DNA from: a virus | Length of the DNA stretch: 47,699 nucleotides | IMG/VR virus record: IMGVR_UViG_3300023276_000226 | Coordinates: 1-47,699 of that record | Direction: 5' to 3' (one strand) | Shown: positions 18,655 through 24,906 of the stretch, in pieces | How the letters are laid out: every line of letters begins with the position of its first letter | Numbering within the stretch: position 1 is the first letter of the stretch | Program-made: the position numbers and the translations under genes | Notes under the pieces: model-generated | The model's database searches: none | What the model saw: only the letters and a program-made list of their open reading frames with translations | What the model was told of the DNA's origin: nothing

Positions 18655-18671
18655 AATATATTATTTAATTT

Positions 18672-18782
18672 GTACACGCAGAGGAGTCGAACCTCGAACC
18701 CATATAGGAAATTCAGAGAACCTATTGAGGGAACACCTACATTGTATCCTGAAGTTTTTGCAAACCTACAATGCTACGTGCA
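18672..18782 (-). ncRNA. tRNA-like element with non-canonical core
   Basis: The minus strand ends with a clear T-arm (GAGG, loop TTCGACT, CCTC) and an acceptor-like helix: TGCACGT (18776-18782) pairs with GCGTGTA (18673-18679) over 7 positions with two G-U pairs. A D-arm-like GCA/TGC with a GG-containing loop follows the 5' strand. The middle is about 35 bases too long and gives CATTGTA/TACAATG and ATAGG/CCTAT hairpins but no proper anticodon arm. It could be a decayed tRNA, an interrupted tRNA or a tRNA mimic. It fills the gap between the lipoprotein and the DUF7417-like gene. Confidence 0.4.
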
Positions 18783-18787
18783 TGTTG

Positions 18788-18949
18788 TTACCTTTTGTTA
18801 CAATTATTCCCATCACTCCATCCACCTCCGTTTCGATTGTTTCCGTACTCAGTCGCTCCTGATGAGGTAGCGCATGAGGTTAAACTCATAGCTACAAGTA
18901 TAGCTACTAAGAGTGTGTATGCTAAGCATACCTTGTTTGTGTGTTTCAT
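18788..18949 (-). CDS. Small lipoprotein, 53 aa
   Basis: The product has a classical lipoprotein signal: MKHTNKVCLA, a hydrophobic stretch (YTLLVAILVAMSL) and the lipobox LTSC with Cys at residue 26. The mature part of about 28 residues is Gly/Asn-rich and polar (GNNRNGGGWSDGNN). Signal peptidase II would cleave before C26 and the protein would be anchored at the cell surface or periplasmic side. Small phage lipoproteins expressed early often block superinfection by masking the receptor (known for T5 Llp); that role here is inferred. Its ATG overlaps the TGA of the upstream gene. Confidence 0.8.
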   Translation of the reverse strand: MKHTNKVCLAYTLLVAILVAMSLTSCATSSGATEYGNNRNGGGWSDGNNCNKR

Positions 18950-20652: not shown

Positions 20653-20921
20653 AGTAGTGAAGGTATTGTTGCAAGGAGAACGTGAATCTTCTTGAAGTGA
20701 TTGATGTACTCAAGTTCATCGTTTAAAGCGTCCAAAAGTTCGTCCATCGAATACTCGTCATCAACACATCCCTCAACCTCTGCATATAGACTCTTAGCAC
20801 GTTCGTATGAGTAGAGCATATGGTCGTGGTAGGTGTCTCCGCGCTGACCTTCGACTACGTAGATTCCATACGTAGCGTATGTGTCGTATATCTTGCGCAT
20901 TATGTTTTGTGCTTTGTTCAT
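20649..20921 (-). CDS. Hypothetical acidic helical protein, 90 aa
   Basis: Unrecognised. It is acidic and helical, with Tyr-rich N-terminal part and a Leu/Asp/Glu-rich centre (YSMDELLDALNDELEYI). Overlaps of 4 bases on both sides couple it with its neighbours in the early operon. No functional motif seen. Confidence 0.6.
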   Translation of the reverse strand: MNKAQNIMRKIYDTYATYGIYVVEGQRGDTYHDHMLYSYERAKSLYAEVEGCVDDEYSMDELLDALNDELEYINHFKKIHVLLATIPSLL

Positions 20922-21118
20922 TTTGATAGGTGGTTTAAGATTTCTTGCGCTTTGTCCATCGCATAGCTACGTTGTTGTGTCATCGTTCCAGCAACTTGTG
21001 GTGTAGGTAGCATAATGCTATATGCCTTGTCTCCTACCTTTAAAGTGTAGAACTCTTGGTGACGTTGGATAGCATTAGCCATCTCGTTTGTGTGGTTGTT
21101 TGTTTCTTCTAAAGTCAT
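20918..21118 (-). CDS. Hypothetical small protein, 66 aa
   Basis: Unrecognised. The N-terminal part is polar (MTLEETNNHTNEMANAI), the centre is strand-like (FYTLKVGDKAYSIML), and the end is helical. It follows the structured gap 21119-21198 and is coupled by a 4-base overlap to the next gene. Confidence 0.6.
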   Translation of the reverse strand: MTLEETNNHTNEMANAIQRHQEFYTLKVGDKAYSIMLPTPQVAGTMTQQRSYAMDKAQEILNHLSK

Positions 21119-21144
21119 CTTAAATTAGATTGGTGAATAATTAG

Positions 21145-21191
21145 AGCGGAGAAACGGAGCGAATCGTTTCGAGGTGCGCACTACCTCCGCT
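21145..21191 (-). ncRNA. Structured GC-rich element, possible decayed ribozyme
   Basis: On the minus strand this 47-base stretch folds as AGCG/CGCT closing two contiguous hairpins, GAGGT/ACCTC (loop AGTGCGC) and GAAACG/CGTTTC (loop ATTCGCTC). The order closing stem, hairpin, GAAAC, hairpin is that of the hammerhead at 21447-21496 except that the CUGAUGA box is missing. It is far more GC-rich than its surroundings and sits in the next gap downstream in the same operon. It may be a degenerate hammerhead or a stability element. Confidence 0.4.
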
Positions 21192-21198
21192 TGTTGGT

Positions 21199-21423
21199 CT
21201 ATCCTATCTCGATATCCCTATTCTCGATAGCCTCTTGCATCTCATCTTCCCAATCTGAAGAGAGCATATTCTCGTACACCTCCTCTCGTGTAACGTGCGC
21301 CCAATTCGTGCGGATGTTGTACTGACCTGATGCAACCATCTCGTCAGATGGGGTGTAGTACACCTCAATTCTGATGTTGTCTATGTCTCTCTGTCCGCAG
21401 TTAACTACTCTAAAATCGTTCAT
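21199..21423 (-). CDS. Hypothetical acidic protein, 74 aa
   Basis: Unrecognised. A strand-rich start (DFRVVNCGQRDIDNIRIEVYY) precedes an acidic helical half (DWEDEMQEAIENRDIEIG). It is the first gene downstream of the hammerhead ribozyme: cleavage would leave a 29-base 5' leader before its ATG. It is followed by the second structured element. Confidence 0.65.
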   Translation of the reverse strand: MNDFRVVNCGQRDIDNIRIEVYYTPSDEMVASGQYNIRTNWAHVTREEVYENMLSSDWEDEMQEAIENRDIEIG

Positions 21424-21446
21424 GGTATATGTATTAGTTAATAAAT

Positions 21447-21496
21447 GTAACAGACGTCTCGCGACGTTTCGACCATTGAGGTCTCATCAGTGTTAC
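21447..21496 (-). ncRNA. Hammerhead ribozyme (type I topology)
   Basis: All core elements are present on the minus strand in order: stem I GUAACA (21496-21491) pairing with UGUUAC (21452-21447); CUGAUGA (21490-21484); stem II GACC/GGUC with a UCAAU loop; GAA (21470-21468); stem III ACGUC/GACGU (including the A15.1-U16.1 pair) capped by a GCGA tetraloop; and C17 at 21453. Cleavage is expected between 21453 and 21452. The UAA stop of the upstream gene lies inside stem I. Self-cleavage would separate the first early gene from the rest of the polycistronic mRNA, 29 bases before the next ATG. The match to the consensus is exact; activity is inferred. Confidence 0.92.
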
Positions 21497-21771
21497 TTTG
21501 GGTTATAGGACATATAAACCTCACGCTCACTTGCGCTCTTAGGCACACCCGCTTCATTCTCGTAACCGAGTAAACGTTGCTTCGTCACTTCGTGAGCATC
21601 GATGGTCTTGTTCCATTGTCTATCGTTTTGTGTTAGTCTATCTCTTAGGTTAGCTATCTCAAATTGAAGGTCTTTCCGTTCCTTTCTATGGTGGGTATTA
21701 ATCTCTCGTATCTGATTAAGGTAGTCGTTCTCAAGTTGTACGAGGTCTTGGAGTGTAACTGAATCGCTCAT
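21493..21771 (-). CDS. Coiled-coil protein, first gene of the leftward early operon, 92 aa
   Basis: The product is dominated by a charged heptad-like helix (residues about 10-65: LVQLENDYLNQI, then HHRKERKDLQFEIANLRDRL), a likely coiled coil. The C-terminus is polar. It is the first gene after the leftward promoter at 21814-21821, and its stop codon is embedded in stem I of the hammerhead ribozyme, so its mRNA would become a separate short transcript after cleavage. Function unknown. Confidence 0.7.
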   Translation of the reverse strand: MSDSVTLQDLVQLENDYLNQIREINTHHRKERKDLQFEIANLRDRLTQNDRQWNKTIDAHEVTKQRLLGYENEAGVPKSASEREVYMSYNPK

Positions 21772-21813: not shown

Positions 21814-21845
21814 CAAATATATAGCATAACTTCTATGCTCACAAG
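21814..21845 (-). promoter_or_regulatory. Leftward early promoter with operator-like inverted repeat
   Basis: The minus strand has a TATATTTG box (21814-21821) 43 bases before ATG 21771 and an upstream TTG (CTTG near 21842-21845) about 20 bases away, close to the Bacteroidota -33/-7 spacing. Between them lies AGCATA (21823-21828) and TATGCT (21834-21839), an inverted repeat well placed for a repressor. A further AGCATA occurs at 21852-21857. Confidence 0.6.
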
Positions 21846-22923: not shown

Positions 22924-24516
22924 ATGCAAGAGCAAGGGTATATTGCTAAAGACCTTTCCTTCGATGAAGAGGGCAGGGCAAAACTTATCAGCGGGATCAC
23001 TGCTATCTCTAAAGCGGTTAAGAGTACGCTGGGCCCACGAGGCAAGACTGTCATCATTGAATCTACAAACCACCTTGGCGGATTAACTGTCACAAAGGAT
23101 GGGGTCACTGTAGCGAAGAGTATTGATCTATACGATCCCGTTGAGAACATAGCTGTACGCATGGTAAAGGAGGCTGCTAATAAGACAGCTTCCATTGCTG
23201 GTGATGGAACCACCACGGCTATTGTTCTTACGGAAGCTTTGGTTTGTTCTGGCATAGAGCATATGTCTGGCGACGTCAATGCCACGGAGGTCATTGGTAT
23301 CATCCGAGAGAAGGTTGACGAGGTTATTAAAAAGTTAGAGAAGCGATCTCGTAAGGTTACGGGCAAGAGGCTTTTGGATGTAGCCACTATCTCTGCTAAC
23401 AACGATAAGAGTTTGGGTAAGCTTATCACGGATACCTATAACGAGGTTGGTTTGGATGGCATTGTTACGGTGGAGCGTTCTCAGACGGCAGACACCTATG
23501 CAGATATTACTACGGGTATTAAAGTTGACCGTGGGTATAGCTCCCCTTTGTTCATCAACAACCATAAGAAGGATGAGTGTGTGCTCGAGGATGTGAAGAT
23601 TTTGGTATGCGATGCTGAGATCAACAACATCATGCAGATCGAGACTGTCTTGAAGGATGTGGTTCAGAAGAATGAGAAGCTGCTTATCATTGGAACGTGT
23701 AGTGTGAATATGATAAACACTTTAGCGGCCAATGTTATGAAGAACGGATTAAAGTTCTGTAACGTCCCTCCCCCCAACTTCGGGTACAAGCAGCACGAGC
23801 TCATGCAGGACATCGCTTTGGCTGTTGGGGCTACGTACTTCTCTGAGAAGACGGGCGACGATCTTAGTCTTATCCTCCCCAGAGATTTAGGCCATGCGCA
23901 AAAAGTCGTGGCAGGCAAAGACTCTACTGTCATCCTTACGGGTAATGATATGAGCGAAGAGTGCACGACTCGCGTAGAGGAATTGCGTGAGCAGCAGGTG
24001 AGAACTAAGAACAAGGGTGAGCGTGACTTTATCAACACGCGTATCGCGAGTTTAGCTGGCGGCATAGGATGCATCTATGTTGGTGGGGATAGTGACATCG
24101 AGCAGAAAGAAAAATTTGACCGCGTCGACGACTCGGTATGCGCTGTGCGCAGTGCCCTCCAGGAAGGCATCCTTCCGGGTGGCGGGTTAGCATTATGGCG
24201 TTTGGCTCCCGACCCTTCGCAGAGCTGTGACTATAGGGAGGAGGATTTGGCCAACCGTATTTTACACGACGCTTTAAAATCTCCTCTGCTTCAGATTATG
24301 GAGAACGCAGGATTGGATGGGGAGCGCATCATGGACAACGACGATCTTATAGACGACACCCATGGGTTCGATGTTAAGAACGAGAAGTACGGGGACATGT
24401 ACAAGATGGGTGTTATCGATCCACTTAAGGTTACCAAGAATGCCTTGATCAATGCCACGAGTGTAGCCACCACTATCCTTAGCACCAATGCTATTGTAAC
24501 ACACGCCCGCGCATGA
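22924..24516 (+). CDS. groEL: Chaperonin GroEL (Hsp60), phage-encoded
   Basis: A full-length group I chaperonin of 530 residues: nucleotide-binding TLGPRGKTV at 35-43, GDGTTTA at 93-99 (D94 equals E. coli D87), apical-domain strands in the centre, and DRVDDSVCAVR with EGILPGGG near 400-420 providing the catalytic Asp of the equatorial domain. The Gly-Gly-Met tail of bacterial GroEL is missing; the protein ends THARA. The complete motif set argues for an active ATPase folding chamber, probably for capsid or tail proteins (inferred). Codons favour ATC/CTT/GGC more than the ATA/TTA-rich neighbours, suggesting high expression or transfer. It is followed, not preceded, by groES. Confidence 0.97.
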   Translation: MQEQGYIAKDLSFDEEGRAKLISGITAISKAVKSTLGPRGKTVIIESTNHLGGLTVTKDGVTVAKSIDLYDPVENIAVRMVKEAANKTASIAGDGTTTAIVLTEALVCSGIEHMSGDVNATEVIGIIREKVDEVIKKLEKRSRKVTGKRLLDVATISANNDKSLGKLITDTYNEVGLDGIVTVERSQTADTYADITTGIKVDRGYSSPLFINNHKKDECVLEDVKILVCDAEINNIMQIETVLKDVVQKNEKLLIIGTCSVNMINTLAANVMKNGLKFCNVPPPNFGYKQHELMQDIALAVGATYFSEKTGDDLSLILPRDLGHAQKVVAGKDSTVILTGNDMSEECTTRVEELREQQVRTKNKGERDFINTRIASLAGGIGCIYVGGDSDIEQKEKFDRVDDSVCAVRSALQEGILPGGGLALWRLAPDPSQSCDYREEDLANRILHDALKSPLLQIMENAGLDGERIMDNDDLIDDTHGFDVKNEKYGDMYKMGVIDPLKVTKNALINATSVATTILSTNAIVTHARA

Positions 24517-24665
24517 GACCTTGGGAAATAAATATAGGTTTCTATGTGGGTATCCTTATCGGCATAAGGAGTTACGATCTGGAAGACGTAACCTCTCACG
24601 TTCTATATCTTCCTTTTATTAATATAGCTTTAATGATAGACAAGTACGATGAAACCGATTGGTAA
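24513..24665 (+). CDS. Hypothetical protein between groEL and groES, 50 aa
   Basis: The ATG overlaps the groEL stop (ATGA) and the end overlaps groES by 17 bases, so it is a coupled third member of the chaperonin operon. The product, MRPWEINIGFYVGILIGIRS then an acidic turn and LYLPFINIALMIDKYDETDW, has two hydrophobic segments that could be short membrane or hairpin helices. It has no known equivalent in bacterial groESL operons that I recognise. Confidence 0.7.
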   Translation: MRPWEINIGFYVGILIGIRSYDLEDVTSHVLYLPFINIALMIDKYDETDW

Positions 24666-24906
24666 ATATATAGTTATAGAAAAGATAGAGGAGACTTTAA
24701 AGACAGAGTCTGGCCTTCTCCTTTCTCAGGAAGATGCTTCTGGGTTTAGATACCAGAAGGGAAAGGTTGTAAAGCCTGGCACCGATGTAGGGGTCATCCA
24801 AGCGGGTGACGTTATCTACTACGACAAAAACGCGGGACACAGTATGTTCGTTAACGAAAAACCATACACTGTCATAGTTGAGCGCGACGTCGTTGTTGTT
24901 TTATAA
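24649..24906 (+). CDS. groES: Co-chaperonin GroES (Hsp10)
   Basis: An 85-residue GroES: PIGKYIVIEKIEE start (strand 1), mobile-loop region with ESGLLLSQEDASG (about 21-33; LLL is the likely GroEL-binding tripeptide), then KGKVVKPGTDV, GDVIYYDKNAG and the closing strand TVIVERDVVVVL. Slightly shorter than cellular GroES (about 97). It would cap the phage GroEL. Its 3' end overlaps the convergent winged-helix gene by 35 bases, so no terminator separates them. Confidence 0.95.
   Translation: MKPIGKYIVIEKIEETLKTESGLLLSQEDASGFRYQKGKVVKPGTDVGVIQAGDVIYYDKNAGHSMFVNEKPYTVIVERDVVVVL

Follow-up and report, generated by a model that had tools for sequence, protein, structure and literature searches.

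The early operon

We analysed the boundaries between the first genes of a leftward early operon in an uncultivated virus record (IMGVR_UViG_3300023276_000226), the genes of which are open reading frames only and the full 47,699 nt of which are here called the window. The features at these boundaries are as follows.

21814..21844 (-), promoter-like site of the Bacteroidetes type, TTG-20-TATATTTG, preceding the first gene, called on sequence
21493..21771 (-), first early gene, an ORF of 92 aa
21447..21496 (-), type I hammerhead ribozyme, supported by its sequence, an RF00163 score of 29 bits, its fold and covariation in relatives
21496-21491 (-), stem I, 5' strand, GUAACA
21493..21495 (-), UAA stop of the first early gene, within hammerhead stem I
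21490-21484 (-), core CUGAUGA
21483-21480 and 21474-21471 (-), stem II, GACC/GGUC, loop UCAAU
21470-21468 (-), core GAA
21467-21463 and 21458-21454 (-), stem III, ACGUC/GACGU, loop GCGA
21453 (-), C17
21452-21447 (-), stem I, 3' strand, UGUUAC
21424..21452 (-), 29-nt leader that predicted cleavage would leave on the second gene, a 5'-OH being expected
21199..21423 (-), second early gene, 74 aa (MNDFRVV..., here the MNDF gene), AUG at 21423, with homologues in several related phages
21144..21194 (-), element 2, a 51-nt three-way-junction RNA
21119..21143 (-), leader of 25 nt that joins element 2 to the third gene
20918..21118 (-), third early gene, 66 aa (MTLEET..., here the MTL gene)

The promoter-like call relies on what we take to be the Bacteroidetes promoter consensus. 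The first gene product is without a PHROG or Pfam match, and the third resembles the product of a gene that lies behind a hammerhead in two related contigs, G049 and G003. On the rightward strand, a GroEL-like gene and then an 85-aa GroES-like ORF (the latter recognized by eye) at 22924-24906 (+) adjoin the leftward operon, and MW202828 is annotated with the same GroEL/GroES pair. A tRNA-like stretch at 18660-18810 (-), with T-arm GAGGTTCGACTCCTC and a possible 7-bp acceptor stem (ACATGCA/TGCGTGT), was called by neither ARAGORN nor Rfam.

The hammerhead ribozyme

The minus strand from 21496 to 21447, read directly, consists of the hammerhead segments in the order listed above. The core is present throughout (CUGANGA, GAA, the A15.1-U16.1 pair and H at position 17), and three stems join at it; stem II has 4 pairs and stem I is open, which makes the ribozyme one of type I. 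Judged by these sequence features, the site is a genuine and complete type I hammerhead ribozyme, with cleavage predicted 3' of C17, between 21453 and 21452. A previous reading of the bare letters (the sequence-only reading) had described a complete hammerhead on the minus strand at 21447-21496, with the UAA of the first gene embedded in stem I at 21495-21493 and 29 nt from the predicted cut at 21453/21452 to the AUG at 21423, and on all of these points, as on the core, stems and loop, it proved to be correct.

The search with the Rfam model RF00163 that had been proposed as a check did return the site, at 29.0 bits with an E-value of 4.6e-5 in 601 bp (8.6e-7 in a second, genome search), but this score falls below the curated gathering cut-off of 34 bits, which is a database threshold and neither a chemical requirement nor a defining feature of a ribozyme. 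Because the score is below this cut-off, the hammerhead is absent from the Rfam gathering search of the window, in which tRNA only was listed. Gathering searches of 147 kb of relatives also gave tRNAs only, and the evidence was therefore taken from low-threshold and comparative searches. RNAfold predicts the exact hammerhead structure as both the minimum free energy (MFE) and the centroid fold (-14.1 kcal/mol); the corresponding z of -1.6 is not significant, so that folding energy alone proves nothing for the hammerhead.

Over all loci collected, 90 distinct sites fitted a strict descriptor that contained the true core, as opposed to 0 or 1 when the core was replaced by any of seven scrambled versions. 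A family covariance model gave the window site an E-value of 1.5e-21, which is not independent since the model was built from five copies including this one, and the next-best position in the window 0.93; the model also matches copies outside its building set, for example that in the cultured phage elemoA (E 2.6e-11). In an alignment of 68 distinct hammerhead rows, which was fitted to the model and is thus biased towards the structure, 99.7% of stem cells are paired, two-sided changes occur in 13 of the 15 pairs, and 224 cells carry such changes compared with 57 in shuffles. All positions of the catalytic core are retained in phage groups that are unrelated to each other. This pattern of substitution is that of a structure selected as RNA. 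The related hammerheads also have in common the loop II pattern U-N-A-N-U and an A that is conserved to either side of stem I (74/75 and 70/75), which together suggest a shared tertiary contact between stem I and loop II.

Hammerheads in other phages

About 80 related hammerheads were found in the loci of relatives. The site in IMGVR 3300023112_000002 is identical to that of the window, 3300037191_001144 has three hammerheads in the same operon, and G018, a terminase relative picked without regard to hammerheads, has seven in a single operon, each of them on the coding strand. Hammerheads are present in 2 of 48 terminase-related records, many of which are fragments. When viral contigs were scanned with a pattern, 58 stretches were obtained, and many of these hold at least two copies. 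The two stretches that were compared with cultured phages, L116 and L125, match T7-like pelagiphages at sites within or close to the early region that contains the RNA polymerase gene, and copies are carried by the cultured pelagiphages HTVC031P, HTVC019P, HTVC109P and Eistla. Among the Flavobacterium elemo phages the hammerhead stretch is present in all 68 records, and in the elemoF copy the pairing of stem II is lost. Neither the hammerhead nor element 2 was found in Cellulophaga phages phi38:1, phi46:3 and phi13:2, Tenacibaculum phage Gundel_1 or MW202828.

Two side observations concern these phages. Further hammerhead-like cores that look like type III lie beside type I copies at about 314 of L197 (HTVC031P) and about 857 of L200 (HTVC019P). 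In MT497017 (17275-17382) and MT497071 (16030-16137), plus-strand genes are annotated over the hammerhead and are probably spurious.

The sequence-only reading regarded a hammerhead straddling a stop codon in an early polycistron as unusual. This did not hold, as the placement is shared by 69 of the 78 hammerheads with enough flank, by the 68 elemo records and by the T7-like pelagiphages. It was scored as an upstream frame of >=40 codons ending between -15 and +3 of the core together with an ATG frame shortly after the cleavage site, so that a stop lies on the upstream side of the ribozyme and a start a short way downstream, and was seen at 1.7% of random positions and 9.5% of bare CTGANGA sites; many contigs are near-duplicates and these counts are not independent events. 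Most upstream stops lie in stem I or within a few nucleotides of it, and most leaders measure 21-44 nt.

A second structured element

Another structured element, which the sequence-only reading had missed, occupies the next spacer at 21194-21144 (-) and has the sequence ACAAGCGGAGGUAGUGCGCACCUCGAAACGAUUCGCUCCGUUUCUCCGCUC. Its loops GYGCG and AUUCGCYY are conserved, and cmscan of three copies gave no Rfam match up to an E-value of 10. Ten distinct copies align without gaps, with 98.1% of cells paired (a percentage biased towards the structure, which was derived from the same sequences) and two-sided changes in 8 of 16 pairs, spread over all three helices; in none of 500 shuffles was the percentage of pairing or the covariation score as high. 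At 10202-10253 of L170, a divergent copy that had not contributed to the model is matched at an E-value of about 2e-13. For the window copy the energy z is -0.98 and the MFE fold is not the three-way junction; we accept the structure because of the covariation and not because of energy.

Element 2 was found in nine phage contigs, namely the window, G001, G002 (five copies), G003 (three), G004, G031 (two), G032, G048 (two) and G049 (two). These represent about six distinct phages, since at these sites G001 duplicates the window, G004 duplicates G003 and G032 duplicates G031. A fixed-spacing pattern hit one contig in 84,980 prokaryote genomes, WLWP01000006.1, which is a phage-like contig in a Pseudomonadales MAG. 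Four GC-rich matches from a relaxed search (L192-L195) are without the pattern and were dropped as chance. At about 1541 of L191 (G048) an extra stretch, possibly a short hairpin, stands between the two arms and may make this copy a four-way variant.

Like the hammerheads, element 2 lies just after stop codons, the stop being mostly 6 to 11 nt upstream, and its leaders usually run 25-28 nt to the next AUG (exceptions 46, 89 and 100). In L186 (3510-3560) and L099 (11694-11780) a promoter-like site comes after the element, about 90-100 nt ahead of the next gene, and there the element may also end a transcription unit.

The two elements take each other's place before homologous genes. Before the MNDF gene stands a hammerhead in the window and in G003, but element 2 in G002; before the MTL gene, G003 and G049 carry the hammerhead, and it is element 2 that is found in the window and in G002. 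As the MNDF and MTL genes adjoin in both G049 and the window, the same boundary is occupied by different elements in these two phages. We infer from their positions that the hammerhead and element 2 are functionally equivalent, and they are best read as interchangeable mRNA-processing elements.

Discussion

Taken together, it is probable that the genuine hammerhead described here acts in cis as an mRNA processing site and that element 2 most likely does the same job. The RNA would fold while RNA polymerase passes and then cut itself 3' of C17, so that the mRNA of the first gene would end shortly after the stop codon of that gene, within the folded body of the ribozyme, and the next gene would begin with a short unstructured leader. 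Element 2 would most likely perform this task at the next boundary by its own means, and the two together would cut the early genes from the polycistron one by one, giving each early mRNA its separate stability and translation. Cutting, its occurrence during infection, the cutting by or of element 2 and the resulting benefit are what we infer from the comparisons above. Several points weigh against this reading: the window site scores under the RF00163 cut-off, stem II is short at 4 pairs, a ribosome terminating within stem I could hinder folding, the elemoF copy has a broken stem II, and hammerheads were seen in no more than 2 of 48 terminase-related records, although many of those are fragments. 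The sequence-only reading had placed the hammerhead just after the first gene of a leftward polycistron, which is the case, and cleavage would separate this gene from the rest. It also suggested that cleavage could uncouple the first gene from about 20 downstream ones; this part has to be revised, given that with element 2 in the next spacer the hammerhead is one of two punctuation marks and not a single switch for all of them at once.

How element 2 would act can be read in different ways. There is about an even chance that it is no ribozyme but is bound or cut by a host or phage protein, such as a ribonuclease, or stabilizes mRNA 3' ends. It matches no Rfam ribozyme, its conserved loops could be protein-binding or kissing loops, and the copies in G003 and G049 that lie about 90-100 nt before the next start would also fit 3'-end formation. 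However, it replaces hammerheads upstream of homologous genes with similar leader lengths, and stems of 4-6 pairs, such as it has, would be short in a classical RNase III site. It may also be, and we propose this tentatively, that element 2 represents a new class of small self-cleaving ribozyme, used interchangeably with the hammerhead at gene boundaries.

An active hammerhead could also serve as a regulated switch that cuts, for example, only when the first gene is not translated. The stop codon lies in or beside stem I in most copies, and a ribosome terminating at an embedded stop would cover stem I and could possibly block folding of the hammerhead. Nevertheless, we consider such regulation unlikely: UGA is part of the core and UAA of the commonest stem I, so that a stop is easily reached there and compactness would explain its position, and element 2 has its stop mostly 6 to 11 nt upstream instead. 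That the elements are DNA-level boundary or recombination cassettes for swapping early genes, with the RNA structure incidental or a relic, is improbable. In favour of it, they sit exactly at gene boundaries, the flanking gene content is shuffled among relatives, and GTAACACT(GAT), which may be the remnant of a hammerhead 5' strand, stands before some copies of element 2 (G002, G048). Against it, recombination would keep the stem sequence, whereas both sides of the stems change while the loops and, across unrelated phage groups, all catalytic core positions stay fixed.

The processing reading bears on a question that has been open since 2011, the role of phage hammerheads, which are here placed gene by gene and right at stop codons. 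As cultured phages carry the motif (Flavobacterium elemo; Pelagibacter HTVC031P, HTVC019P, HTVC109P and Eistla), this role is testable in infected cells. The replacement of a hammerhead by another structured RNA before homologous genes makes element 2 a concrete candidate for a new ribozyme class, one that rests on the logic of shared context, as in earlier ribozyme discoveries.

The candidate bears a weak likeness to the catalytic loop of the twister-sister ribozyme, with ACAAG and GCUC(A/U)A in element 2 and GCAAG and GCUCAU in twister-sister (PMC5660989). Unlike in twister-sister, its hairpin loops are different, and the G that is extruded in twister-sister is paired. By eye, no consistent pairing of an outer stem P1 of the twister-sister type was seen in its flanks, the family covariance model gave no match to the three copies scanned, and membership of twister-sister is unsupported.

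The early polycistron of phage T7 is cut between genes by a host enzyme, RNase III, at hairpin sites. The arrangement described here is similar in that an early polycistron would be cut between genes; here the RNA is predicted to cut itself, and in T7-like pelagiphages hammerheads lie in the early region near the RNA polymerase gene.

Clusters of hammerheads that flank phage genes have been reported; three of them showed cleavage in vitro, and the one from Agrobacterium was cleaved in E. coli as well (Perreault et al., 2011; PMC3088659). In the haloviruses HF1/HF2, a hammerhead variant (HHphage) lies 13 nt upstream of an early helicase gene, and a transcript 5' end maps to its cleavage site, within three nucleotides (PMC3088659). 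A paper on HDV-like theta ribozymes in gut phages does not mention hammerheads (PMC10879173). No related paper on pelagiphage ribozymes was found in the part of the literature covered, and a mixed system of hammerhead and element 2 was not found in the literature searched, subscription journals and preprints being largely outside its scope. Like the 2011 clusters and RF00163, the hammerheads described here have the same core and three-stem layout, with several copies flanking single genes or short blocks in phage polycistrons; unlike those clusters, they have in common a loop II pattern and a stem I of 6 bp, in which the stop codon is often found, and in some of the phages another RNA element, unrelated to the hammerhead, alternates with them. 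As with HHphage of HF1/HF2, which are lytic, the hammerhead lies just upstream of an early gene, but HHphage has a variant core and belongs to an archaeal virus, whereas the core is standard and the phage bacterial in the present case. The hammerhead is a further member of the kind reported in 2011, and element 2 is the new part.
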